64,000 nt of DNA from NCBI RefSeq assembly GCF_000319575.2, contig NC_021291.1:1302001-1366000 (forward strand), in the 5' to 3' direction. The notes below the pieces were generated by a model. The model was not told the origin of the DNA and ran no database searches. It worked only from the letters and a program-made list of their open reading frames with translations. This document shows, one piece after another, positions 50,496 through 64,000 of the stretch. The position numbers and the translations under genes were made by a program. How positions within the stretch are numbered: the first letter of the stretch is position 1; every line of letters starts with the position of its first letter. The DNA comes from Spiribacter salinus M19-40. GTDB lineage: Bacteria; Pseudomonadota; Gammaproteobacteria; Nitrococcales; Nitrococcaceae.

Positions 50496-52313
50496 TTAGC
50501 TGCCCGCCTTCGCGGCGCGTTTACGTTCGTGCTCGAGCAGGTATTTCTTGCGCACCCGAATGGCCGCCGGGGTCACCTCAACAAGTTCATCATCGTCGAT
50601 GAACTCGAGCGCCTGCTCCAGGGTGAGGCGCTGGGGTGGCGTGAGGACGATATTTTCGTCCGATCCAGCCGCGCGCACATTGGTCAGCTGCTTCGCCTTG
50701 AGTGGGTTGACCACCAGATCGTTATCCCGGCTGTGCAGGCCAATGACCATGCCCTCGTAGACCTCGTCACCATGGCCGATAAAGAGCTTGCCCCGATCCT
50801 GAAGATTGAACAGGGCGTAGGCGAGCGCCTTGCCGGCTGCCATGGCAATCATCACGCCATTATTACGCTGACCGTAATCACCGGCTTTTGTCGGGCCGTA
50901 ATGATCGAAGACGTGATACATCAGCCCGGTCCCTGACGTAGCCGTCAAAAACTCGGTGCGAAAACCGATCAGCCCGCGAGCGGGGATCATGTAATCGAGC
51001 CGCACGCGGCCACGACCATCCGGCAGCATGTCGCTGAGCTCACCGCCCCGCTCGCCCAGTCGCTGCATGACCGCGCCCTGGTAGTCTTCCTCAACATCCA
51101 CCGTGAGCTGCTCGTAGGGCTCTTCCAGGCGACCATCCACTTCCCGGGTGATCACCTCCGGCCGGGAGACGCCCAGCTCATAGCCTTCGCGGCGCATGTT
51201 CTCGATGAGAATACCGAGGTGCAACTCGCCACGACCGGATACCCGGAATTTCTCGGGGTCTTCCGTGTCTTCGACGCGCAGCGCCACGTTATGCTGCAGC
51301 TCTCGCATCAGACGATCCCGCAGCTGCCGGGAGGTCACGAATTTGCCCTCACGGCCGACAAATGGCGAGGTGTTGACCTGGAATGTCATGGACACCGTTG
51401 GCTCATCAACGGTCAGCGCCGGCAGCGGCTCAACGGCCGCCGGGTCACAGAGCGTGTCGGAGATATTGATGCCATCAATGCCGGTAAAGGCAATGATGTC
51501 GCCCGCGCTCGCCTCGGGCACCTCAACGCGCTCCAGCCCCATAAACCCCAACACCTGCAGCAGCCTGACCTGGCGCCGCTTGCCATCACGATCCACACAG
51601 ACCAGGCTCTGGCCGCTCTTCACCTGGCCACGCTCGATGCGACCGATCCCGATCACACCGACGTAGCTGTTGTAATCAAGCGAAATCACCTGGGTTCGAA
51701 ACGCGCCGTCGGCATCCACCTTGGGCGGCGGAACGGCGTCGCGAATCAACTCCAGCAGCGGTGTCATGTCGCCCGAGCGGACATCCGAATCCAGCCCGGC
51801 GTAGCCATTCAGCGCCGAGGCGTAGATGACGGGAAAGTCGAGCTGCTCGTCGCTCGCGCCGAGGTTATCGAACAAATCAAAGGTCTTGTCGACGACCCAA
51901 TCCGGGCGCGCGCCGTCCCGGTCGACCTTGTTGACGACCACAATCGGCTTGAGCCCTTTGGACAGGGCTTTCTGGGTGACAAACCGCGTCTGCGGCATGG
52001 GCCCGTCGACCGCGTCCACCAATAACAGCACGGAGTCGACCATCGAGAGCACACGCTCAACTTCGCCACCGAAGTCAGCGTGGCCCGGCGTATCCACAAT
52101 GTTGACGCGCAGGTCCTGCCACTCAATGGCGGTGTTCTTGGACAGGATCGTGATGCCGCGCTCACGCTCCAGATCGTTGGAGTCCATGACGCGCTCCTGC
52201 ATCTCGCCGCGGGCGGCAAGCGTACCGGATTGCTGGAGGAGCTGGTCGACGAGGGTGGTCTTGCCATGATCGACGTGGGCGATAATGGCGATGTTGCGTA
52301 GATTCTCGATCAC
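50496..52313 (-). CDS. typA: Translational GTPase TypA/BipA
   Basis: Ribosome-associated GTPase needed for 50S assembly at low temperature and under stress. The 605-residue protein has IAHVDHGKTTLVDQLL (G1), ERERGITI, DTPGHADFGGEVERV (G3) and NKVDRDGARPDWV (G4). EF-G-like domains III and V and the TypA C-terminal domain (GKALAYALFNLQDRGKLFIGHGDEVYEGMVIG) follow. It lies 81 bases downstream of the trkH stop; two inverted repeats are in that gap. Confidence 0.97.
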   Translation of the reverse strand: MIENLRNIAIIAHVDHGKTTLVDQLLQQSGTLAARGEMQERVMDSNDLERERGITILSKNTAIEWQDLRVNIVDTPGHADFGGEVERVLSMVDSVLLLVDAVDGPMPQTRFVTQKALSKGLKPIVVVNKVDRDGARPDWVVDKTFDLFDNLGASDEQLDFPVIYASALNGYAGLDSDVRSGDMTPLLELIRDAVPPPKVDADGAFRTQVISLDYNSYVGVIGIGRIERGQVKSGQSLVCVDRDGKRRQVRLLQVLGFMGLERVEVPEASAGDIIAFTGIDGINISDTLCDPAAVEPLPALTVDEPTVSMTFQVNTSPFVGREGKFVTSRQLRDRLMRELQHNVALRVEDTEDPEKFRVSGRGELHLGILIENMRREGYELGVSRPEVITREVDGRLEEPYEQLTVDVEEDYQGAVMQRLGERGGELSDMLPDGRGRVRLDYMIPARGLIGFRTEFLTATSGTGLMYHVFDHYGPTKAGDYGQRNNGVMIAMAAGKALAYALFNLQDRGKLFIGHGDEVYEGMVIGLHSRDNDLVVNPLKAKQLTNVRAAGSDENIVLTPPQRLTLEQALEFIDDDELVEVTPAAIRVRKKYLLEHERKRAAKAGS

Positions 52314-52340
52314 GGGTGCTGAGTGCTCTTGGCTGGAGAA

Positions 52341-52355
52341 GCCCGGTCGCCGGGC
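52341..52355 (-). repeat. GC-rich hairpin before typA
   Basis: GCCCGG and CCGGGC flank a three-base loop. On the minus strand the stem is followed by TTCTCC, so it is at best a weak terminator. It lies 28 bases before the typA start. Confidence 0.4.
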
Positions 52356-52373
52356 AAAACACCTATGATCCGC

Positions 52374-52396
52374 GACTCAAGACAGCTTGTCGAGTC
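52374..52396 (-). repeat. Inverted repeat at the trkH stop codon
   Basis: On the minus strand GACTC-GACA, loop AGC, TGTC, a two-base TT bulge and GAGTC form a nine-pair stem that overlaps the trkH stop. There is no T-tract directly after it. It may be a processing or stabilising hairpin at the end of the trk message. Confidence 0.4.
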
Positions 52397-53864
52397 AGCG
52401 CGCCAGCGCCCAGGCGGCCAGCACCAGCAAGGGGAAGATTTCCAGCCGCCCCAGCAGCATCAACAGGCTCATCAGCCCCGCCGTTGCCCACGGCATGTCA
52501 GGCCCGGCAATCCCGGTGGACAACCCCGAGTTGAACAACGCTGAGGCCGTGTCGAAGAACACATGCGCAAGCCGGGCTTCCTCCGGCAGGGTATGCAGCA
52601 CCAGGAACACCCCAAGCAACCAGAGCAGCATAAAGATGCCGACAAGGCGCGCGGCGATTCGCCCCAGCCGGGCGAACTGACCGGGTGTCACCCGTTCGCC
52701 GTCATGCGGGAGGATGACCACCTCGTGGGGACTCGCGCGCAACTCGCGTAACTGCCCCAGCAGATCTCGCAGCAACACGTTGACCCGCAGCAGCTTAATC
52801 CCCCCGCTCGTGGATCCGGCCATGCCACCGGTGATCACGGCCACCAGCACCAGCAGCAGTGCGGCATCGCCCCAACTGGCCAGATCAACGCTGGTAAAAC
52901 CGGCGGTGGTCAGGGCAGAAACCCAGAGAAACGCGGTCGACACACCCCCCCAGTCGCCCATGGCGAGCCAGCGCTCCAGCCACAGCAACACAAGCCCACC
53001 AACGGTAAGCCAGACCAGCAGCCGTAGCTCGTCGGTGCGCCAGACACTCGGCAGGGGGCGCCGCTCCACAATCAGCCGGTAGTGCACGAGAAAGCTCACC
53101 GCGCCTGCCAGCATCACGGGAATGTAAGCCAGCTGGACGGCCCCCGAGGCCTGCATGAGGCTGTCATCCGTTATTGAGAACCCGCCGGTGGCAATGGCGG
53201 TCATGCCGTGATTGATCGCGCGCCAGAGGGGCTCCCCGGCAAGCCAGAGCAGGCCGATGCCCGCGATGGTATAGCCCAGATAAATCACCCAGATGGCCCG
53301 CACGGTCGATTTGACCGTGGGCAGGATCTTCTCCTCCCGGGCCTCGGAGAAATACAGATTAAGCGCGCCCCGGTCAGCCGGTAACACGGCAATGAGCAGC
53401 AGGATGACGCCAATGCCTCCCACCCACTCACTGAACGAGCGCCACCACTGGATGTGCGCCGGCAGCTCCGAGGCCGTGGCCACCACGGTCAGACCCGTCG
53501 AGGTAAACCCCGACACGGACTCGAAAATCGCATAGACGGGGAACTGGAACACTGCGAGCGCCAGGGCCATCGCTGAGCCATCCGGGGCTAACCGCGCCGA
53601 CGCAATAAAGGGCAAGGCACCCAGAAGCGCAATCAGCAGCCAACTGATCGCCGCGATCTGCATTGACTGATAGCGCTGGAACGCGCCCGCGTGCCGACCC
53701 ATCCAGACCAGCCCCTGCCCACCGAACAAGGCGAGCCCCGCGGTCCAGCCGAGACCCACCAGGCCCCAGCGCTCGTCTGCCCACCAGGCCACGGGCATCG
53801 ACAAAAGCGCCATGATGCCCGGGACATGCAGCAAAAACCCGGTACCGCGCAGGACCTCGCGCAA
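52395..53864 (-). CDS. trkH: Trk/Ktr potassium uptake membrane subunit TrkH
   Basis: Potassium-translocating subunit. The 489-residue protein has the four pore-loop repeats with their filter glycines: FESVSGFTSTGLTVV, MTAIATGGFSI, ALTTAGFTSVDLASWG and ASALFNSGLSTGI. The gating region is around VITGGMAGSTSGGIKLLRVN. It starts 3 bases after the trkA stop. In a halophile this system keeps high cytoplasmic K+ during osmotic stress, complementing proVWX. Confidence 0.95.
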   Translation of the reverse strand: MREVLRGTGFLLHVPGIMALLSMPVAWWADERWGLVGLGWTAGLALFGGQGLVWMGRHAGAFQRYQSMQIAAISWLLIALLGALPFIASARLAPDGSAMALALAVFQFPVYAIFESVSGFTSTGLTVVATASELPAHIQWWRSFSEWVGGIGVILLLIAVLPADRGALNLYFSEAREEKILPTVKSTVRAIWVIYLGYTIAGIGLLWLAGEPLWRAINHGMTAIATGGFSITDDSLMQASGAVQLAYIPVMLAGAVSFLVHYRLIVERRPLPSVWRTDELRLLVWLTVGGLVLLWLERWLAMGDWGGVSTAFLWVSALTTAGFTSVDLASWGDAALLLVLVAVITGGMAGSTSGGIKLLRVNVLLRDLLGQLRELRASPHEVVILPHDGERVTPGQFARLGRIAARLVGIFMLLWLLGVFLVLHTLPEEARLAHVFFDTASALFNSGLSTGIAGPDMPWATAGLMSLLMLLGRLEIFPLLVLAAWALAR

Positions 53865-53867
53865 AGC

Positions 53868-54545
53868 CTAGCCTTCTCCCGTGGACTCGCGGAACAGGCG
53901 CCGCCGCCGGCCCCGTAACCGTTGCGTTGCAAAAAGCACGAGCCCGTCCCCAGCAGCCAGCGGCTCATCCGGCTTGAGCAGCTGCGTTTCACCCTCACGA
54001 ACGCGAGCGATGATCTCCAACGTTTCATCGAGCACGCCATCAGCATGAATCTGCTCCGCGGTCCGCCCGGTCAGCGGGGAGGCCGCATCCACCTGCAGCT
54101 CGATGATCTGCTGGCCATCTCGCAGGGTGGTCACGTCGCTGGCTTCAGGCAGCAGCGTAATATCCAGCAAATGCTGCGCCACCAGCCGCTCGGGGTCGGC
54201 CAGCACCCGCACGCCGAGGCGTCGGAAGAGATTCACATGACCAGGCTGATTCACCGTGCTGGTCAGCGTGGCAACCCCCGCCTCCTGGCCCAGCAACATC
54301 GCCATGATATTCACCGAGTCATCGGTCGTGGTGGCGATCAGCGCCTCAGCATCGTCGAGCCGACTTTCCTCCGGGAAACGATCATCCCCAACGCCCATGG
54401 CCAGAACGCGCACGTCGTACTCACGGGCGGCGGCCTCGGCCAGGGTCTCATCCGGCTCGACCAGGACAACGTCATGTCCACCCGCCAGGGCGCGTTCAAC
54501 GAGTCGGCTGCCCACCGGGCCGGCCCCCAGAATGATCAGGTTCAT
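53868..54545 (-). CDS. trkA: TrkA-type regulatory subunit with a single RCK unit
   Basis: Cytosolic NAD(H)-binding gating protein of the K+ transporter. The 225-residue protein has one TrkA_N Rossmann domain (NLIILGAGPVGSRLVERAL, acidic residue in VVLVEPDE, ATTTDDSVNIMAMLLGQEAG) and one TrkA_C domain (ELQVDAASPLTGRTAEQI). E. coli TrkA has two such units in about 458 residues, so this is the half-size form like KtrA. The start at 54545 follows GAGGAGACAGGC. The trkA–trkH order, 3 bases apart, points to a dedicated pair. Confidence 0.9.
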   Translation of the reverse strand: MNLIILGAGPVGSRLVERALAGGHDVVLVEPDETLAEAAAREYDVRVLAMGVGDDRFPEESRLDDAEALIATTTDDSVNIMAMLLGQEAGVATLTSTVNQPGHVNLFRRLGVRVLADPERLVAQHLLDITLLPEASDVTTLRDGQQIIELQVDAASPLTGRTAEQIHADGVLDETLEIIARVREGETQLLKPDEPLAAGDGLVLFATQRLRGRRRRLFRESTGEG

Positions 54546-54588
54546 GCCTGTCTCCTCTTCCATGGCGGTGTGTTCGACGCCGTCTGCA

Positions 54589-55569
54589 TCATACGCTCAG
54601 CGCCGGCTCCTGCATGGCAGCGGCCTGCTCGCGCAGGGCGAGCACGTGGTCCTCCCAGTAACGGTCGGTGTTAAACCACGTGAACGTGCTGGGAAAAGCC
54701 GGGTCATGCCAGCGCTGGGCCAACCAGGCGGCATAGCGCATCATCCGCAGCGTTCGCAGCGCCTCCAGCAAAACCAGTTCCCGCGGATCAAAGACATGAA
54801 AATCCTCATATCCAGCCAGCAAATCCCCCAGCTGGAGGGTGCGCTCGGTGCGATCGCCGGAGAGCAGCATCCACAAATCCTGAACGGCCGGACCCGTCAG
54901 ACAGTCATCCAGATCCACCAGGTGGGGGCCCGCGTCTGTCCAGAGAATGTTGCCGGGATGAAAATCCCCATGCAGGCGAATCGGCGACCAACCACCGGCC
55001 CGATCAAAGGCGGCGTTGATATCCACCAGGAGGTCATCCGTCAGCGAGGCATAGGCACTCGCCAAATGCCCGGGGATCCAGCCCTCGCCCAGTAGGAAAT
55101 CGCGGCTCCCCGTCCCCATCGACTGCGGGTCCATAGCCGGGCGATGCGCAAATGCCCGGGCATGACCGACGGCATGGGCTCGGCCCAGCAGCCGCCCCAG
55201 CCACTCACGGGTATCCGCATCATCAAGCGGGGGTGCATGGCCACCGCGGCGCGGGTAGACCGCGAAGTAAAATCCCGCATGCGTCCCCACCGTGTGTCCG
55301 TCAAACGCCAGCGGCGGGACCATGGGAATGTCATGCGCCGCCAGCTCTTCGGCAAACGCATGTTCTTCACTGAGCGCGTCTTTTGGCCAGCGCCCGGGCC
55401 GATAGACCTTCAGGATGACCGGATCTGCCTCCTCGACACCCAGTTGATAGACCCGATTTTCGTAGCTGTTCAATGCCAACAGGCGCCCATCCGGGTGCAG
55501 ACCGGTGGACTCAAGCATGTCCAGCAGCAGACTCGGCCCCAGTTCGGAAAACGGATGGCTGGCGCTCAC
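54589..55569 (-). CDS. srkA: Stress response Ser/Thr kinase SrkA (RdoA/YihE)
   Basis: A kinase of the aminoglycoside-phosphotransferase fold that counters stress-induced death in E. coli. The 326-residue product (E. coli 328) has SYENRVYQLG, the ATP Lys in VILKVYRPGRW, the catalytic loop RLHGDFHPGNILW and the metal Asp in LVDLDDCLTGPAVQDLWML. The GTG start at 55569 overlaps the stop of the PHP gene (GTGA), as expected for coupled translation. The place between rnm and trkA suggests a stress-linked operon. Confidence 0.92.
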   Translation of the reverse strand: MSASHPFSELGPSLLLDMLESTGLHPDGRLLALNSYENRVYQLGVEEADPVILKVYRPGRWPKDALSEEHAFAEELAAHDIPMVPPLAFDGHTVGTHAGFYFAVYPRRGGHAPPLDDADTREWLGRLLGRAHAVGHARAFAHRPAMDPQSMGTGSRDFLLGEGWIPGHLASAYASLTDDLLVDINAAFDRAGGWSPIRLHGDFHPGNILWTDAGPHLVDLDDCLTGPAVQDLWMLLSGDRTERTLQLGDLLAGYEDFHVFDPRELVLLEALRTLRMMRYAAWLAQRWHDPAFPSTFTWFNTDRYWEDHVLALREQAAAMQEPALSV

Positions 55570-56411
55570 GCGGCGGTCTCCCAGCGCGGCCACACCGGTG
55601 TCAGATCCACCGGGGGCGGGCCAAACCCACCAATACGAATCCATGGAAAATCGGGATCATGGAAGTCCGACCCCATGGAGGCCTCCAGGCCAAAGCGACG
55701 GGCGAGTGCCGCGGCTGCAACGACATCGTCACGGCCGCCACCGCCATTGCTGACCTCGATCGCCCCGCCACCGGCCTCCACAAACGCTTTCACCGCCGCG
55801 CGCAGAGCACCCCGGCTGAGCCGGTAGCGCAACGGATGGGCGAAGACCGCGACGCCGCCCGCGCCGTGAATCCATTGCACCACCTGATCGATAGCGGCCC
55901 ACTCCACCGGGGCATAACCCGGACGACCCCGCTGGAGATAGCGATCGAAGGCCTTCTGAATCGTCCGTGCATGCCCGGTTTCCATCAGGTCGCGGGCGAA
56001 GTGCGCCCGGCCCGGCACGCCCGCACCGACCAGGGCCTCCACCCGCGCAGCAATGCCCTCGACACCCGCTTGCTCCAGCCGCTCCGCGATCCGAGTCGCC
56101 CGACGATGGCGCTCCGCCTGCTGCTGCGCGACCCCAGCCATTAACCCCGCCTCGGTGGGATCGATGCCCAGGCCCACGATGTGCACCACGCCACGCGCCC
56201 AGCGGGCCGAGAGCTCAATCCCCGGTACAAAGGTCACATCGGCCTCGCGCGCTGCCGCGTCGGCGCGCGTTAGGCCATCGAGCGTGTCATGATCGGTGAG
56301 TGCCATCATGCGGACACCCGCGGCGGCCACCCGAGCGACCAGGTCCTCCGGCGTTAAACGGCCATCCGAAGCGGTACTATGCATGTGAAGATCGATGGGG
56401 CTGACGGACAT
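55566..56411 (-). CDS. rnm: PHP-domain phosphoesterase, RNase AM type (Rnm/YciV)
   Basis: In E. coli this family removes extra nucleotides from 5' ends of rRNA and degrades short oligonucleotides. The 281-residue protein has the PHP metal motifs IDLHMHSTASDG, ALTDHDTLDG, FVPGIELSA, GRAHFARDLM, AVFAHPLRY and GSDFHDPDFPW. The ATG at 56411 gives MSVSPIDLHMH. It is divergent from argD and is the first gene of the rnm–srkA–trkA–trkH run. Confidence 0.9.
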   Translation of the reverse strand: MSVSPIDLHMHSTASDGRLTPEDLVARVAAAGVRMMALTDHDTLDGLTRADAAAREADVTFVPGIELSARWARGVVHIVGLGIDPTEAGLMAGVAQQQAERHRRATRIAERLEQAGVEGIAARVEALVGAGVPGRAHFARDLMETGHARTIQKAFDRYLQRGRPGYAPVEWAAIDQVVQWIHGAGGVAVFAHPLRYRLSRGALRAAVKAFVEAGGGAIEVSNGGGGRDDVVAAAALARRFGLEASMGSDFHDPDFPWIRIGGFGPPPVDLTPVWPRWETAA

Positions 56412-56422
56412 GGCGAGCAATC

Positions 56423-56451
56423 TTGTGGCGCTGTGCCCCCCATCCTATAAT
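56423..56451 (+). promoter_or_regulatory. Promoter of argD–argF
   Basis: TTGTGG (56423-56428) and a perfect TATAAT (56446-56451) are spaced by 17 bases. The predicted start is near 56458, immediately before a terminator-like hairpin in the leader. No ARG-box-like repeat was recognised. Confidence 0.65.
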
Positions 56452-56459
56452 GAACGGCT

Positions 56460-56487
56460 CGGCAGCCGCAGGCTGCCGTTTGTTTTT
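56460..56487 (+). terminator. Terminator-like hairpin in the argD leader (possible attenuator)
   Basis: CGGCAGCC (56460-56467), loop GCA and CGG-rich GGCTGCCG (56471-56478) form a perfect eight-base stem followed by TTTGTTTTT (56479-56487). This is an intrinsic terminator by structure, but it stands after the argD promoter and directly before the CGGAGG ribosome site. No plus-strand gene lies upstream for it to end. A second stem, CGGCT (56455-56459) with AGCCG (56464-56468), would exclude it. Confidence 0.6.
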
Positions 56488-56501
56488 CGGAGGTCATTGC
56501 C

Positions 56502-57698
56502 ATGTCAGCGGCCCTCATGCCCACCTACGCACGCCTGCCCGTCGCCTTCCAGCGCGGCCAGGGCGCGTGGCTGGAAGACACGACCGGTCGGCAGTATCTG
56601 GATGCCCTCACCGGTATTGCTGTCTGCGGCCTGGGCCACGGCCATCCGGCAGTGGCCGCCGCACTCGCCGACCAGGCCGCAACGCTGGTGCATACCTCCA
56701 ACCTCTACGATATTCCGCATCAGAACGCCCTCGGCGAGCGACTGTGTGCGCTGTCCGGACTCGATCAGGTGTTTTTTGCCAATAGCGGGGCGGAAGCGGC
56801 AGAGGCCGCCATCAAGCTTGCCCGGCTTTATGGCCATCGCCGCGGCATCGAGCAGCCGGAGATCATCGTGGCCGAGAATGCCTTTCATGGACGAACACTC
56901 GGTGCGTTGGCGGCAACGGGCAATGCCAAGGCACAGACCGGCTTTGGGCCGCTGCCTGCCGGTTTCGTCCGTGTGCCGTACAACGACCCGGCCGCTGTCG
57001 AGGCCGCAGGCACGGAGCAGACCGCCGCCGTGTTCGTCGAGCCGATTCAGGGCGAAGGCGGCATTGTCGTACCTGATGACGACTACCTGGCGGCACTGCG
57101 GCGCATCTGCGATGACCGTGGCTGGCTGTTGATGCTCGACGAGGTGCAGTCCGGGGTCGCCCGAACCGGGCAGTGGTTCGCCCATGCCCACGCCGGCATT
57201 CGCCCCGACGTGGTCACGCTGGCCAAGGCCCTCGCCAATGGCGTACCCATCGGGGCGTGCATTGCCGGCGGTGCAGCCACCGGCGTGCTCGGCCCTGGCA
57301 GCCACGGCACCACGTTCGGCGGCAACCCCCTCGCCACCCGCGCCGCGCTGGCCGTCCTCGATGTCATTGAGGCGGACGGCCTGGCTGCACGGGCGGCCAC
57401 CCTGGGCACACGAATACGCGAGGGATTTCGGGATAGGCTGGCGGGCGAGCCCGGCGTTCGCGAGATCCGGGGCCGTGGCCTGATGATCGGCATCGAACTG
57501 GCCCACCCGTGCCCTCAACTCGTGGCGCAGGCGCTGGCGGCCGGGCTACTCATCAACGTGACCGCCGGCCAGGTGGTTCGCCTGCTACCCCCCCTGATCA
57601 TGAGCGATGCAGAAGCCGACCAGCTGGTTTCCACACTCGCCCCCATGATTCTGGCGGTGGCCCGTGAAACTGATAGCCCGGCTGTTGCCGGCGCCTGA
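56502..57698 (+). CDS. argD: Acetylornithine aminotransferase
   Basis: Class III PLP aminotransferase of arginine (and often lysine) synthesis. The 398-residue protein has TGIAVCGLGHGHP, FFANSGAEAAEAAIKLAR, ENAFHGRTLGALAATGN, EPIQGEGGIVVP, LMLDEVQSGVARTG, the PLP lysine in VTLAKALANGVPIGA and HGTTFGGNPLA. A CGGAGG ribosome site precedes the ATG. argF follows 21 bases later, so the two arginine genes form an operon. Confidence 0.95.
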   Translation: MSAALMPTYARLPVAFQRGQGAWLEDTTGRQYLDALTGIAVCGLGHGHPAVAAALADQAATLVHTSNLYDIPHQNALGERLCALSGLDQVFFANSGAEAAEAAIKLARLYGHRRGIEQPEIIVAENAFHGRTLGALAATGNAKAQTGFGPLPAGFVRVPYNDPAAVEAAGTEQTAAVFVEPIQGEGGIVVPDDDYLAALRRICDDRGWLLMLDEVQSGVARTGQWFAHAHAGIRPDVVTLAKALANGVPIGACIAGGAATGVLGPGSHGTTFGGNPLATRAALAVLDVIEADGLAARAATLGTRIREGFRDRLAGEPGVREIRGRGLMIGIELAHPCPQLVAQALAAGLLINVTAGQVVRLLPPLIMSDAEADQLVSTLAPMILAVARETDSPAVAGA

Positions 57699-57719
57699 CC
57701 GCAACCCGGAGCATTCCCC

Positions 57720-58622
57720 ATGGCAGCCCGTCATTTCCTGACCCTGGCCGATCTGGACTCAACTGAGCTGGAAGCCCTGCTCCGCCGGGCTGCGGAGCTC
57801 CGCGCCCTGCATCATGCCGGCTCGCTCCATGAACCCCTCCGGGGCCGAGTGCTCGGCATGATCTTCGAGAAATCGTCGACACGCACCCGGGTGGCATTCG
57901 AGGCCGGTATGGCCCAGCTAGGGGGCAGTGCGATCTTCCTGTCACCGCGTGACAGCCAACTCGGCCGCGGCGAGCCCATCGAAGACACCGCACGGGTCCT
58001 GTGCAGCATGGTCGATGCGGTGATGATCCGGACGTTTGCCCACGAGAACGTCGAGCGGTTCGCCAGCGCCTGCCGAGTGCCGGTAATCAACGGGCTGACC
58101 GACGACCATCATCCATGTCAGCTCCTGGCCGATCTGCAAACCTGGCAGGCGCATCGCGGCGCAATCACCGGACGCACCGTGGCCTGGATGGGGGATGGAA
58201 ACAACATGTGTCGGTCGTGGATGCAGGCGGCTGAGCGCATGGGGTTTCAGCTCCACATTGGCTGTCCAGCCGACTACATACCGGCCGACCTCGACGCCTA
58301 TCCGGCAACGCGGCATATCATCGACCCCGAAGAAGCCGTGAAGGGCGTCGATCTGGTCGTCACCGATGTCTGGGCGAGCATGGGAATGGAAGAGGAGCAG
58401 GCGACCCGTCTGGCCGCCTTCCGGCCCTACCAGGTCAATGAAGCCATCATGGCAGAGGCTGCAGACGATGCGCTTTTCATGCACTGCCTGCCAGCCCATC
58501 GAGGAGAAGAGGTCAGCGCCGCGGTCATCGACGGCCCACAGAGTGTGGTGTGGGAGGAAGCCGAGAACCGACTCCACGCCCAGAAAGCCCTGCTGGAGTG
58601 GTTAATCGCCGGCACCGCATGA
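57720..58622 (+). CDS. argF: Ornithine carbamoyltransferase
   Basis: Makes citrulline from ornithine and carbamoyl phosphate. The 300-residue protein has the carbamoyl-phosphate loop [15 protein letters not shown], the HPCQ motif in [37 protein letters not shown] and the ornithine-site [11 protein letters not shown]. The gene is convergent with phoU, 10 bases apart. The anabolic role is inferred from the argD neighbour. Confidence 0.95.
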
Positions 58623-58632
58623 GGGCGCTGGC

Positions 58633-59355
58633 CTAGTGCCGGTCGCCCGTCGCCTCTTCGGCCATTTGCTCGAAGCTGGTGTGGCGCACGTCCTTGCCCC
58701 GCACGAAGTAGATCACGTACTCGCAGATATTCCGGGAGCGGTCGCCAATCCGCTCCAGCGAACGGGTGGCCCAGACGATGTCCAGCACCGGGGGGACTGA
58801 CTTCGGATTATCCTCGAGGTATTTCACCAGGTTGCGGATGATGGCGTCGTACTGCGCATCGGCCTTGATGTCCTCCTGGGCCACGCGCACCGCCTGCTCG
58901 GCATCCATGCGCGCGAAGGCATCCAGGGCACCACGCACCATGTTTTTCACCTGCTCGCCAAGCGCCCCAATCTCGCTCATGGGGCTGCGACGGCGATCCT
59001 CATCCAGCAGGTGCAGGGCCATCCGCCCGACCCGCTCCGCCTCGTCACCAATGCGCTCGAGGTCCGTAATGGCCTTGATGACAGCAACGACGAGGCGCAG
59101 GTCACTCGCGGCCGGCTGACGACGGGCGAGCACGTTCGTGCAGGCCTCATCCAGCTCGACCTCCATGGCATTGATGCGGTAGTCCGACGTGACCACCTGC
59201 TCACCCTTTTCCTGGTCACCAGAGACCAACGCCTCCAGCGCCGCCTCCAGCTGCTGCTCCACGAGCCCACCCATGGTCATGACCCGGGTGACGATCTGCT
59301 CGAGATCCTCGTTGTACTGCCGGGAGATGTGCTGGGAAAAACCTTTCTTGTCCAT
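58633..59355 (-). CDS. phoU: Phosphate-specific transport system accessory protein PhoU
   Basis: Negative modulator of PhoR signalling, connecting it to the Pst transporter. The 240-residue protein starts MDKKGFSQHISRQYNEDLEQ and contains two three-helix PhoU repeats. The metal-binding motifs are in ITDLERIGDEAERVG and ATRSLERIGDRSRNICEY. The start is supported by AGGAG about 12 bases upstream. It is the last gene of the pstSCAB–phoU set. Confidence 0.96.
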   Translation of the reverse strand: MDKKGFSQHISRQYNEDLEQIVTRVMTMGGLVEQQLEAALEALVSGDQEKGEQVVTSDYRINAMEVELDEACTNVLARRQPAASDLRLVVAVIKAITDLERIGDEAERVGRMALHLLDEDRRRSPMSEIGALGEQVKNMVRGALDAFARMDAEQAVRVAQEDIKADAQYDAIIRNLVKYLEDNPKSVPPVLDIVWATRSLERIGDRSRNICEYVIYFVRGKDVRHTSFEQMAEEATGDRH

Positions 59356-59377
59356 GTCGCGTACCGCTCCTGCGGGC

Positions 59378-60226
59378 TCAGCCGAATCGGCCGGTAATGT
59401 AGTCTTCGGTGCGCTGCTCGCGCGGATTGGTGAACAACGTATCCGTGTCGTTAAACTCCGCAATCTGGCCCATGTGGAAAAACGCCGTGTAGCCAGCGAC
59501 GCGGGCGGCCTGCTGCAGATTATGGGTAACAATGACAATGGTGTAGTTGTCTTTGAGCTCGTGAATGAGCTCTTCGACCGTCGCCGTGGCGAGTGGATCG
59601 AGTGCCGAGGCCGGCTCGTCCATCAGGATCACCTCGGGGTTCACGGCGATGGCCCGAGCAATGCACAGGCGCTGCTGCTGCCCTCCGGAAAGCTCCGTGC
59701 CCGGTGTGTGCAGGCGGTCAGCCACCTCGTTCCAGAGGCCGGCACGCTTGAGCGATGATTCAACGAGGCCATCCAGCTCCGAGCGTGACGTGCCGGTGCC
59801 ATGCAGGCGCGGTGCATAAGCGATGTTTTCGTAGATGCTCTTCGGGAACGGGTTTGGTTTCTGAAACACCATGCCGACGAAGGTACGTAGCTGCACCACA
59901 TCAACGCTGGCGTCGTAGATATCCTCGTCATCCAGGGTGACATCACCCTGGATGCGGACCTGCGGAATCAAATCATTCATGCGGTTGAGGCAGCGCAGGA
60001 ATGTCGACTTACCACAGCCAGACGGACCAATGAGCGCCGTCACCTCGCGAGCGTACATGTCCAGGCTAATGTCATGCAGGGCCTGGGTATCGCCATACCA
60101 CAGGTTTAAATCGCGAGCGCGCATCTTCACCTCGGGCGCGTTGGCGCGCTCAGGCGTGGTGGCGTCGTTGTTCTCGGCCATGGTCTGCGTCTCCGCCGCC
60201 GTCACATTTTCGCTCTTAGTTTCCAT
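59378..60226 (-). CDS. pstB: Phosphate ABC transporter ATP-binding protein PstB
   Basis: ATPase of the high-affinity phosphate importer. The 282-residue protein has a non-conserved polar N-terminal tail of about 35 residues. The family sequence [19 protein letters not shown] follows, with Walker [23 protein letters not shown] and Q-loop [18 protein letters not shown]. The signature [16 protein letters not shown] and Walker [13 protein letters not shown] complete it. A GAGGA site precedes the ATG at 60226. Confidence 0.97.
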
Positions 60227-60243
60227 GAAGTCCTCGCGAGTCG

Positions 60244-61413
60244 CTACCAGCGACGTTCAAACCGCCGCCGCAGGAATACGGCCGTTGCGTTGAGTGTAAG
60301 CAGAATGGCCAACAGCACCATGATGCCGGCACCCGTCTTCTCGACAAATGCCTTGCGGGGCTCACTCGCCCAGGTGAACACCTGCGCGGGCAGCACCGTG
60401 GCCGAATCGAAGATACTGGTTGGCGCATCCGGAATGTAAGCGATCATGCCCACGATAATCAGCGGCGCTGTCTCACCCATGGCCTGCGCCAGGCCGATGA
60501 TGGTACCGGTCAGGATGCCGGGCAGCGAGAGTGGCAGCACATGATCCCGAACCACCTGCCAGCGCGAACAGCCCATCGCAAACGCCCCCAGGCGAATGGG
60601 GTCGGGCACGGCGCGCAACGCGGCTCGGGTGCTGATAATGATAATGGGCAAAGTCATCAGGCCCAGGGTCAATCCGCCGACCAGCGCCGACGATCGCGGC
60701 ACCCCGAACGTATTGATGAACACCGCCAGGCCCAGGAGGCCGAAGATGATCGACGGCACCGCCGCCAGATTATTGATATTGACCTCGATGAGCTGCGTGA
60801 GCTTGTTGTCCGGCGCAAACTCCTCAAGATAGATCGCTGACATCACGCCAATGGGGAAGGCAAAAACCAGGGTGACGAACAGCACCAGGATCGACCCAAC
60901 GGCGGCCGAGAAGATACCCGCCATCTCCGGGAGCTTCGAGTCACCCGACGTAAAGAATGCCCAGTTGAAGACATTGCGGATGCGATCTTCCTCCGCCAGC
61001 CGATCAACAATGGGTGCCAATTCTGGATCAAGCTCTTCGTTTCCTTTCAGGTACTGATCGACGCGGCTGTAGACCGGCACCCAGACCTCACGCGTGCTTC
61101 CCGCCAGCTCTGGGTTGTTGCGAATCTCCAGCGGAATGGACCGAACCGCGCCGCGGGAGACGACCTCCCGCAACTCTTCCTGAATTGCAAAGCGTCCGAT
61201 TCGCTCGGCGCGCTCGTTATAATCCAGCGTGACCTGAATTTCGCTGCGCCAGAACGCGCTATAGCCCTGGGTAATGATGTCGGCAAAAAACGCCAGGATG
61301 ATAGCGAACGCCACGAAGAGCGCTGTAATCGTATAGGCCTTGAATCGCGATTCGGTCCGGTAACGGGACCGGATACGCGGGTCGTTGGCTGATCCAGTGA
61401 GTCGTCTCTGCAT
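60244..61413 (-). CDS. pstA: Phosphate ABC transporter permease PstA (long form)
   Basis: Inner-membrane permease subunit. The 389-residue protein is about 90 residues longer than E. coli PstA. After the first helix ([22 protein letters not shown]) there is a roughly 110-residue soluble, acidic periplasmic segment (about 50-165). The BPD_transp_1 core follows, with [36 protein letters not shown] as the coupling loop. This matches the DUF3333-containing PstA variant common in marine gammaproteobacteria and relatives. Confidence 0.94.
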
Positions 61414-61425
61414 CCCAGGCCCCGT

Positions 61426-62673
61426 CTAGTCGTATTTCTGCTTGAACCGGCGCACCAGGTAGGTGGAAACCAGGTTCAACATGAGTGTCACGATGAACAG
61501 CACCAGACCCAAGGCGAACGCCGCCAATGTCTTGGGGCTGTCAAATGCCTGATCACCCGTGAGGGCATAGACAATATTCACGGTGACCGTGGTCATATCC
61601 TCTAACGGGTTCCAGGTGAGATTGGGGCGCACCCCCGCGGCCATAACGACAATCATTGTCTCGCCGAGTGCGCGGGATACCCCCAGCAGGAAGGCCGAGA
61701 TCACCCCAGGCAGCGCCGCCGGCAGGATCACCTGCTTGATCGTCTCCGAATGCGTCGTGCCAAGCGCGTAGGCACCCTCACGCAGGCTCTGCGGGATACT
61801 GTTGATCACATCGTCCGACAGCGAGGAAATGAACGGGATGATCATGATGCCCATCACGATACCCGGAGAGAGGATATTGCTGTAGGACGCATCCAGTCCG
61901 AAAAAGCCCGCGATATCGACAACGATGGGCGTCACCGTGATGGCGGCGAAGAAGCCGTAAACCACCGTCGGGATGCCCGCCAGGATCTCGAGCACCGGCT
62001 TGGCAATACCGCGTTGGGTGCGCGTGGCATACTCGGACATAAAAATCGCCGAAAGCAGCCCGATAGGTAGGGCAGTCGCCATAGCAATCGCTGTGACCAT
62101 GAAGGTGCCCGCAAACAGCGGCACCGAACCAAAGAAGGAGGTCCCTTCTTCAACTTCGTCGCCCCGGCCAGCGGCCTCGAGGAACGTATCCCCGGGTGCC
62201 CAGACCGTGCCGGTCACAAACTCCCAAACGCTCACCTCGCGAAAGAAACGCATCGCCTCAAAGACAATCGACAGCACGATGGCGATCGTTGTCATGATCG
62301 AGATCAACGCCGCACCCATGAGCAGGAAACGGACAGTGTTATCAAGTACGTTACGGGCGCGAACCTCCGGGCGAATCGCCCGAAGGCCATGGGCAAGCCC
62401 AATCGCGGCCACGGCAACGCTAACGATCAACACCAGCTCACGCGCCGGTGAAATCACACCGAAAAGACTGAGAATCGCGGCAGCAAGGGCGACACCAAGT
62501 GCCGGCACGCCCATCCACACTACTGAATACCAGCCATACTGCTGTGGCCGGGAATGCATGCTGATCCCTGCAGCCATCTTCGCGATGGCCTTGCCGCGTC
62601 CAAGACGGAAGGCCAGTAAGCCAAGCGGCGCAAGCGCGAGCAGCAACAGCAATGTGGTGGTTCCAATGCCCAA
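61426..62673 (-). CDS. pstC: Phosphate ABC transporter permease PstC (long form)
   Basis: Partner permease of PstA. The 415-residue protein has two or three extra N-terminal helices (TTLLLLLALAPLGLLAFRLG; WMGVPALGVALAAAILSLFG; ELVLIVSVAVAAIGLAHGL) before the usual six-helix core. The coupling loop is GAYALGTTHSETIKQVILPAALPGVISAFLLGVSRALGE. E. coli PstC has 319 residues. It is separated from pstS by 114 bases with two hairpins, and from pstA by 12. Confidence 0.94.
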   Translation of the reverse strand: MGIGTTTLLLLLALAPLGLLAFRLGRGKAIAKMAAGISMHSRPQQYGWYSVVWMGVPALGVALAAAILSLFGVISPARELVLIVSVAVAAIGLAHGLRAIRPEVRARNVLDNTVRFLLMGAALISIMTTIAIVLSIVFEAMRFFREVSVWEFVTGTVWAPGDTFLEAAGRGDEVEEGTSFFGSVPLFAGTFMVTAIAMATALPIGLLSAIFMSEYATRTQRGIAKPVLEILAGIPTVVYGFFAAITVTPIVVDIAGFFGLDASYSNILSPGIVMGIMIIPFISSLSDDVINSIPQSLREGAYALGTTHSETIKQVILPAALPGVISAFLLGVSRALGETMIVVMAAGVRPNLTWNPLEDMTTVTVNIVYALTGDQAFDSPKTLAAFALGLVLFIVTLMLNLVSTYLVRRFKQKYD

Positions 62674-62710
62674 AACGCGTCCTCGTATTCCCCGGTCTTC
62701 GAGTTAGGAC

Positions 62711-62740
62711 GTCGCTGCCCCACTTGAGCAGGACAGCGAC
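62711..62740 (-). repeat. Hairpin upstream of pstC (minus-strand RNA)
   Basis: GTCGCTGCCC and GGACAGCGAC flank a ten-base loop. In the minus-strand transcript the one non-Watson-Crick position is a G-U wobble, while on the plus strand it would be a C-A mismatch. This favours a role in the pst mRNA. There is no T-tract, so it is not a standard terminator. Confidence 0.5.
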
Positions 62741-62756
62741 GAAATCGGCGTCAAGT

Positions 62757-62776
62757 GCTCACAACTCCCTGTGAGC
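62757..62776 (-). repeat. Hairpin just after the pstS stop
   Basis: GCTCACA and TGTGAGC form a perfect seven-base stem with a six-base loop, 11 bases after the pstS stop codon. There is no T-run after it. It is suited to protecting the pstS 3' end. Confidence 0.5.
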
Positions 62777-62787
62777 GTCGCGACACC

Positions 62788-63810
62788 TTAGCCCTCCAAA
62801 TCACTCCGCTGGAGATCAACCCGGTTCTCGACCCGCTCACGCCATTCGGCGCTCTGGCTGGCAGGCAGCGGGATCAGGCCCTCTTCGATGAGCAGGCCAT
62901 CGGTACCGATCATGATGTCGTCCATGAACAGGCTGACGTACTCGTCGATGCCCGGCACGACACCCTCGTGGGCTTCCTTGATGTAGAACCAGAGGCTCCG
63001 GGCCACCGGATAGTCCTCAGTGGAGATGGACTCCGTGGTCGGCTCGACACCGTCAACCGTCGCGGCCTGAACGACGTCGCTGTTCTCCTCGAGGAAACTG
63101 AAACCAAAGATACCCACGGCATCCTTGTTCTCGGTGATCCGCTGAACGATCAGGTTGTCGTTCTCACCGGAATCCACGTAACCGCCGTCGGAGCGAATGT
63201 CGGTATACTCTTCCGGGTAGCCGGCAGCCTCACTGGCACCCTCCATGACCAGCTCCTCGAATGCATCACGCGTACCGGAAGTCGTGGGCGGGCCCAGGAC
63301 TTCGATCTCAGCGTTGGGGAGGCTGGAGTCAATCTCGTTCCAGCTGTCGTACGGATTCTCAACCAACTCGCCGTTCTGCGGCACCTCGGCCGCCACGGCC
63401 AGCAGGATCTGCTCACGGGTCAGGGCCAGCGGTTCGTTATCTGCGCTGTGGGCAATGACGATGCCGTCCGAGCCGATCAGCGCCTCGGTGATCTCGGTCA
63501 CGCCATTGTCCTGGCAGCGATCGAACTCACTGGGCTTCATGCGGCGGGAAGCGTTGGTGATATCCGGGGTGCTGACGCCAACGCCCTCACAGAACAGCTG
63601 CAGACCACCGCCGGAGCCCGTGGACTCGATCACCGGGGTCGGGAAGTTCGTGGTGGCGCCGAACTCTTCGACGACGTAGCTGGCGAACGGGTAGACGGTG
63701 CTGGAACCAACGATCCGAATCTGATCGCGCTCCTGGGCAACGGCCACGGAGGTCATGCCGGTCAGTGCGGCAGCCGCAGTGGCAAGGGCTGTAGTCTTCC
63801 AAGTCTTCAT
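62788..63810 (-). CDS. pstS: Phosphate-binding protein PstS
   Basis: Periplasmic phosphate receptor of the Pst transporter. The 340-residue precursor has a signal peptide (MKTWKTTALATAAAALTGMT, cut near SVAVAQ-ER). The phosphate-binding segments are IVGSSTVYPFASYV, ESTGSGGGLQLFCEGVG, ITNASRRMKPSE and PTTSGTRDAFEEL. The mature protein is strongly acidic. A GAGGAG site supports the start. It is the first gene of the pst operon and has a Pho-box promoter directly upstream. Confidence 0.96.
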   Translation of the reverse strand: MKTWKTTALATAAAALTGMTSVAVAQERDQIRIVGSSTVYPFASYVVEEFGATTNFPTPVIESTGSGGGLQLFCEGVGVSTPDITNASRRMKPSEFDRCQDNGVTEITEALIGSDGIVIAHSADNEPLALTREQILLAVAAEVPQNGELVENPYDSWNEIDSSLPNAEIEVLGPPTTSGTRDAFEELVMEGASEAAGYPEEYTDIRSDGGYVDSGENDNLIVQRITENKDAVGIFGFSFLEENSDVVQAATVDGVEPTTESISTEDYPVARSLWFYIKEAHEGVVPGIDEYVSLFMDDIMIGTDGLLIEEGLIPLPASQSAEWRERVENRVDLQRSDLEG

Positions 63811-63850
63811 GAGGTCGCTCCTCGTAGTGCTTCAGGTTAGTGCTCCGAGG

Positions 63851-63884
63851 AGGCTAGGCAAGAAATATGACAGCATCATGACCG
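63851..63884 (-). promoter_or_regulatory. Pho box and -10 of the pst operon
   Basis: On the minus strand CGGTCAT (63884-63878), GATG, CTGTCAT (63873-63867), ATTT and CTTGCCT (63862-63856) form 7-base repeats at an 11-base pitch. The middle unit is the exact PhoB consensus. The -10 candidate TAGCCT (63856-63851) lies 10 bases after the middle repeat, as in class I Pho promoters, leaving a leader of about 34 bases. Confidence 0.72.
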
Positions 63885-63900
63885 CAGGAGCAGCCATGCT

Positions 63901-64000
63901 TCAAGCGCCGCGGTCATCCGCCCGGGAGGCGGGCTGGGCCTCACGAACCGGGTCGGGGAAGATGCACGAGAAGGTGCTCCCCACCCCGGGTTCGCTGTTT
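63901..64000 (-). CDS. phoR: C-terminal end of a sensor histidine kinase, probably PhoR (runs off the window)
   Basis: Only the last 32 or so codons are visible. They include NSEPGVGSTFSCIFPDPVRE, the G2-box region and final strand of a HATPase_c domain, followed by a short polar tail and TGA. Position directly upstream of pstS and its Pho box makes PhoR, the phosphate-starvation sensor, the likely identity; phoB would be expected beyond the right edge. Confidence 0.7.
   Translation of the reverse strand, partial: NSEPGVGSTFSCIFPDPVREAQPASRADDRGA

Follow-up and report, generated by a model that had tools for sequence, protein, structure and literature searches.

A conserved hairpin and split T-tract between the promoter and start codon of argDF: a probable premature terminator in Spiribacter salinus and its relatives

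Described leaders closest to the argDF leader

The closest known counterparts of the leader analysed here precede other genes. In Pseudomonas, according to the portion of PMC4997734 available to us, transcription towards carA starts 118 nt upstream of the gene and first passes a potential Rho-independent terminator; a short RNA, P32 of P. syringae, arises from this leader. The same portion, citing a 1994 paper, states that pyrimidine control requires a stem-loop in P. aeruginosa, where a leader peptide has been reported (none in P. syringae) and ArgR also acts. The E. coli greA leader (GraL; accessible part of PMC6829880) carries an intrinsic terminator after its promoter, with about one-third read-through and short RNAs, and both its imprecise termination and its dependence on GreA were shown by experiment; 19 nt precede the terminator structure. 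A third case, the Polynucleobacter carA motif, is presented in the accessible part of PMC8632094 as an extended hairpin and proposed translational riboswitch, with no terminator described there; the paper also reports a proX motif in Spiribacter, and argD is absent from its main text. The main text of a prediction of 5' terminators in 302 genomes, where they were less stable than 3' ones, likewise lacks argD (PMC2965389), and that of a study of P. aeruginosa 3' ends lacks both argD and argF (PMC8297930).

Like the Pseudomonas carAB leader, as far as the available text describes it, the argDF leader stands at the carbamoyl-phosphate branch point and has a putative Rho-independent terminator in a short leader between promoter and gene; unlike it, it serves another gene, the carAB leader being longer and the carA hairpins of the genomes searched here having another sequence. 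With the greA leader, again as described in the part available, it shares a predicted terminator right after the promoter and the lack of an identified metabolite sensor, but the gene is another one, GraL has 19 nt before the stem against the predicted 2–13 nt or so here, and termination was experimental for GraL whereas for argDF it is predicted from sequence. The Polynucleobacter motif, in the part of its description at hand, is similar in being an extended leader hairpin at a carbamoyl-phosphate gene, in betaproteobacteria, and differs in lying before carA and in being a proposed translational riboswitch. Within the searchable parts of the open-licence literature no description of an argD or argDF leader was found (the term argD occurred once, in PMC3616915), nor, by title among the papers listed, a Spiribacter transcriptome paper. 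The S. salinus leader (best E 2.5) and 20 further argD leaders had no Rfam match at gathering score; hits below it, among them isrD, rnk leader and ncS025, were taken as chance, and identity with a known Rfam RNA was rejected. The leader is real, conserved and, as far as these literature and Rfam searches reach, undescribed; it is best placed among the premature-terminator leaders as a broad group, where it has an extreme position and a split U-tract.

The leader in S. salinus and its genus

The window, i.e. the whole 64-kb stretch of DNA that was analysed, comprises positions 1302001–1366000 of a genome of one contig of 1,739,487 bases. Its argD region contains the following features.

55566–56411, minus strand: nearest upstream gene, divergent (ORF), presumably a PHP-domain protein from its sequence features
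56423–56428, plus strand: -35 hexamer TTGTGG (from sequence; the TTG spacing is kept among argD leaders)
56446–56451, plus strand: -10 hexamer TATAAT (from sequence), 17 nt from the -35
56457–56459, plus strand: predicted transcription start, placed from the position of the -10 alone
56460–56478, plus strand: putative terminator hairpin of 8 GC-rich base pairs with loop GCA (sequence; genus conservation; 35.6 bits with model R1, below), arms CGGCAGCC (56460–56467) and GGCTGCCG (56471–56478)
56479–56487, plus strand: split T-tract TTTGTTTTT (sequence; split form common among leaders)
56488–56493, plus strand: argD ribosome site CGGAGG (from sequence)
56502–57698, plus strand: argD, acetylornithine aminotransferase (ORF, ATG at 56502; class-III aminotransferase PF00202, 380.6 bits), a name we assume from conservation and the argF neighbour
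57720–58622, plus strand: second operon gene (ORF; homologue 3' of argD in relatives), which from its sequence features we take to be argF, ornithine carbamoyltransferase

Every element of the promoter, hairpin and T-tract that an earlier note on this DNA had placed before argD was found at its position. The same note had stated that no plus-strand gene lies upstream to be terminated, which holds, the nearest gene being divergent and on the minus strand, and that the stem starts at about +2, which agrees with the start predicted from the -10, from which the stem would begin at about +2 to +4. A few bases separate the argDF -35 from either possible start (56411 or 56420) of the divergent gene, and about 90 nt of intergenic DNA are common to the two genes.

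Local statistics on their own do not single the hairpin out: positions 52000–64000 hold nine terminator-like sites (shuffle mean 7.3, sd 3.0), of which it is the first, and the fold of the 64-nt leader has a z of -0.99. A generic promoter scan did not list the argD promoter, because TTGTGG matches three of six positions and the scan requires four. We judge the hairpin to be real because it is conserved in relatives. When loci of relatives were picked by argD protein similarity and their upstream DNA was then read, the 8-bp stem was intact in all 12 readable same-genus loci (S. salinus included), each with a T-tract after it and with TATAAT or TATACT at the same place; conservation of the stem in close relatives, which the earlier note had named as a check, is thereby borne out. 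A C to T change within the stem of L016 retains pairing, and L008 is interrupted by a contig end, yet its 3' arm and tract are visible. A fourteenth genome (L019) contributed another argD-like gene, which has no such leader.

The competing stem proposed in the earlier note (56455–56459 with 56464–56468) fared less well. The pairing is possible on paper, yet no more than 6 of the 12 same-genus loci keep it intact, and we therefore rejected it as an antiterminator; part of its 5' arm would also precede the likely +1. Since this stem is not conserved and inspection by eye revealed no fitting leader ORF at the S. salinus locus, classical attenuation is not supported either. An ATG directly before the stem was seen by eye in L119, L130, L134, L035 and L141 and is absent from the S. 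salinus leader and most others; with an ATG there in few loci and a predicted 5' tail of 2–13 nt, an attenuator working through a leader peptide was also rejected.

The exact stem occurs at one site in the genome and is therefore not a genomic repeat. Strict matches to the succession of promoter, hairpin and T-tract numbered zero elsewhere in the 64-kb window, one in ten 20-kb stretches of the S. salinus genome and zero in ten of G161, and this rarity in the sampled DNA led us to reject the layout as a general promoter habit. The sole other S. salinus match in that sample (L180, near 16105, about 816,105) lies shortly before an ORF starting MAAQNIATEAHRRRTFA, which we take to resemble prfC.

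Distribution and architecture across the class

In 131 of 138 loci the gene next after argD is an argF homologue (13/13 in L004–L016, 16/17 in L017–L033, 74/79 named loci and 28/29 class loci), and three of the seven loci without it end at a contig edge; we therefore speak of an argDF leader. The survey itself rests on two blind sets, chosen by argD protein only (29 and 60 loci, 89 together), with a terminator-like hairpin sought within 140 nt upstream and a -10 box of at least 5/6 matches sought 6–21 nt before the stem. Hairpin and T-tract were present upstream of argD in 29/29 and 54/60 blind loci (83/89), and the hairpin was preceded by the -10 box in 22/29 and 28/60 (50/89), leaving 39/89 with no good -10 box at that distance and 6/89 with no hairpin. 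Among control gene starts, taken by naive ORF calling from 200 kb each of the S. salinus genome and G161, a hairpin was found at 13/75 and 12/94 (25/169) and a hairpin with -10 box at 0/75 and 1/94 (1/169). Under the same criteria, argG in 30 genomes gave 5 hairpins and no -10 box before any of them. The layout thus stands at 0/30 for argG, against an argDF leader that is shared by many families across the class.

Other samples delimit this distribution. In a third, smaller draw only 3 of 10 class argD loci had a hairpin and 2 a hairpin with -10 box; for 19 argD loci of other classes the figures were 4 and 0, and the DNA upstream of E. coli argD has neither the hairpin nor the hairpin with -10 box. 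The full layout was seen in 24 of 61 Burkholderiales-like named loci (a group assigned by us from titles and resemblance) and any hairpin in 30, these leaders often using other stems, e.g. CGGCTCAACC..GTTGAGCCG; the remaining 18 named loci gave 5 with the layout and 15 with any hairpin. One set of leaders comprised 109 loci (30 and 79), L051 having been dropped for want of upstream DNA. Relatives without such a hairpin are L032 and G028; L018 keeps the stem and has no T-tract; and G014, of the same family and without an R1 match, has a CAGCC..GGCTG hairpin and T-tract after TATAAT. In four loci of the same order (L023, L025, L027, L028) an outer GGCAGC/GCTGCC-type stem and T-tract are kept upstream of argD while the loop is expanded to a long internal hairpin, the whole measuring 52–68 nt. 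The loose core pattern occurs in 26/29 and 30/60 blind loci, and in 25/2220 and 12/2220 background 180-nt windows.

Model R1 was built from alignment A1, which holds 40 of 53 pattern matches drawn from 138 loci and omits near-identical same-genus rows together with L036, L093, L118, L139 and L142; the stem core in A1 is there partly by construction, the blind figures being those of the 29- and 60-locus sets. In A1, whose rows were preselected with the core pattern, 89.5% of stem cells are paired and two-sided changes number 21 against 8.7 in shuffles, i.e. the stem covaries. Applied to 232 genomes of the class (150 matches listed; 150 genomes with a listed argD place; 'upstream' meaning at most 160 nt from argD on the same strand), R1 favours argD at high scores: among the matches listed, 19/21 at 36 bits or more lie just upstream of argD, followed by 10/15 at 34–36, 18/28 at 32–34, 6/26 at 30–32, 6/43 at 28–30 and 4/17 at 26–28 bits. 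Among these listed matches 63 genomes have one at argD, 39 of them not used for building R1, and in the S. salinus genome the argD leader is the only match at E 0.05. L283 (G361) is the single genome outside the class with an R1 match and a hairpin before argD.

Of five other high R1 matches inspected, four start 5–26 nt after the end of a same-direction ORF and are terminator-like (among these four, L168 is also followed by another ORF 29 nt further on); for the fifth, L173, the ORF list has no such ORF end. That R1 also matches stems just after other ORFs would suit a left-over terminator of an upstream gene, just as the GGCAGC..GCTGCC palindrome at the start site would suit a DNA operator in the form of an inverted repeat. 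We consider this pair of explanations largely refuted and scarcely credible, because the half-sites lie from 3 to 56 nt apart (L048, L025), so that no fixed dimer fits, and because the upstream gene is divergent in S. salinus; in other loci (e.g. L201, L231, L250) a different terminator can be seen ending upstream of the promoter.

The geometry of the leader was followed in 48 of 59 pattern matches (ten lacked a -10 of 5/6 and one was too short; the -35 was not consulted). TTG lies 16–18 nt before the -10 in 40/48 argD leaders, at exactly 17 in 33, and the gap from -10 to stem is 9–20 nt, so that the predicted RNA would have about 2–13 nt before the stem. In these 48 leaders the T-tract directly adjoins the stem, and 15–53 nt separate it from the argD match, counted to the protein-match start, which is not always the start codon. 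Among 78 distinct core-bearing leaders T occupies 96–100% at positions 1–3, 47% at position 6, 92% at position 8 and 99% at position 9, the last being outside the stretch used for leader selection, and 67/78 have the split form. In a set selected by hairpin alone the split form occurs in 64/74, versus 30/74 in a control of hairpins that follow ORF ends; since this control contains some argD leaders, it is conservative. Because the tract adjoins the stem while its distance to argD varies, we argue that its role lies more with the hairpin, in pausing or termination, than with the ribosome.

This geometry bears on the possibility that the leader terminates nothing and is instead a 5' stabilising stem followed by a U-rich translation enhancer, the mRNA being shielded from decay and the ribosome aided. 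A stem beginning about 2–13 nt from the predicted start would serve the first part, while for the second, the S. salinus tract immediately precedes the ribosome site and, in 67/78 leaders, has an interruption that a terminator does not need. An enhancer, however, should stay with the ribosome site, and the tract stays with the stem, 15–53 nt from the argD match; we regard this explanation as unlikely.

Probable premature termination and the carbamoyl-phosphate branch point

The leader has the layout of a premature terminator, with a GC hairpin and then a T-rich tract between promoter and start codon; this layout is conserved and, among the genes tested, prefers argDF. We suggest that the argDF leader is probably a promoter-proximal premature intrinsic terminator and that argDF is made by read-through. 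Transcripts from the sigma-70 promoter would fold the GC hairpin about 2–13 nt after the start and continue into the split U-tract, RNA polymerase would release part of them at about +30 to +45 as a tiny RNA, and the polymerases that read through would express argDF. Among the points against such a terminator are that the split tract would weaken it, that stems with this core also match after other ORFs, that some relatives and blind loci have no such hairpin or no good -10 box, and that local statistics are unremarkable. Among the options raised in the earlier note, a very short attenuator-like terminator with a tiny RNA fits best, and the 5' stabilising stem has been weakened by the variable distance between tract and argD.

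The tiny RNA might itself be the product that matters, acting in trans and sharing the argD promoter, with argD read-through as a by-product. Leaders of this type do yield short RNAs, namely P32 from carA in P. syringae and GraL in E. coli, according to the accessible parts of the respective papers. We nevertheless find such a role highly improbable, given that the loops and 5' tail are not conserved in sequence, that only a few bases are unpaired, and that, in the part of PMC4997734 available, deleting P32 from P. syringae changed little in planta and did not make the bacterium auxotrophic.

Returning to premature termination, the most likely target of any control would be the terminator as it forms or the polymerase itself (through nucleotide supply, elongation factors or a stem-binding protein), since the S. 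salinus leader has no suitable ORF and is too small for a sensor domain, and since the alternative stem that was proposed is not conserved. A fixed damping of argDF expression instead of control is possible. Taken together, a premature terminator of tuned strength is the most likely view. ArgR (PF01316) had no match in the S. salinus genome, the E. coli control being positive, which gives no support to an ArgR-regulated operon there. It exceeded the cut-off in 20/232 class genomes, none of which is among the 150 with a listed argD place, a grouping that rests on argD similarity and is post hoc; of 180 genomes with argD at E 1e-85, six have ArgR. To our knowledge, the control of arginine synthesis in gammaproteobacteria without ArgR is largely an open question.

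A second leader is conserved upstream of carA: among 30 genomes, hairpin and T-tract were found in 24, four with a close -10 box, and a CGGGA..TCCCG-type core was present in 24/30; compared by core sequence, it differs from the GGCRG..CTGCC core of argD. In five carA loci tried, Rfam gave no match at gathering score. The S. salinus carA hairpin (L344:1428–1455; the other carA loci examined are L317–L343, L345 and L346) is of the CGGGAGG..CCTCCCG type with a T-tract, and a GGAGG ribosome site would be another possible partner for its 3' arm CCTCCC. By analogy only, the argDF leader may be the same kind of device as the carA leader, on the other side of carbamoyl phosphate.

Finally, we raise as a speculation, to which we give little chance, that the split U-tract is a UTP sensor which, together with the carA hairpin, forms a carbamoyl-phosphate terminator circuit without dedicated regulator protein or aptamer. 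At low UTP the polymerase would linger at the conserved U8–U9 and terminate, argF would fall, and carbamoyl phosphate would be left for pyrimidine synthesis; were this so, the carbamoyl-phosphate branch point of ArgR-less Gammaproteobacteria would be a terminator-based circuit. For the leader as a premature terminator, our results suggest genes throttled by early termination in many gamma- and betaproteobacteria and, since the leader is too short for a sensor domain or a leader peptide, it would be a minimal system in which control exerted at the terminator can be tested directly.
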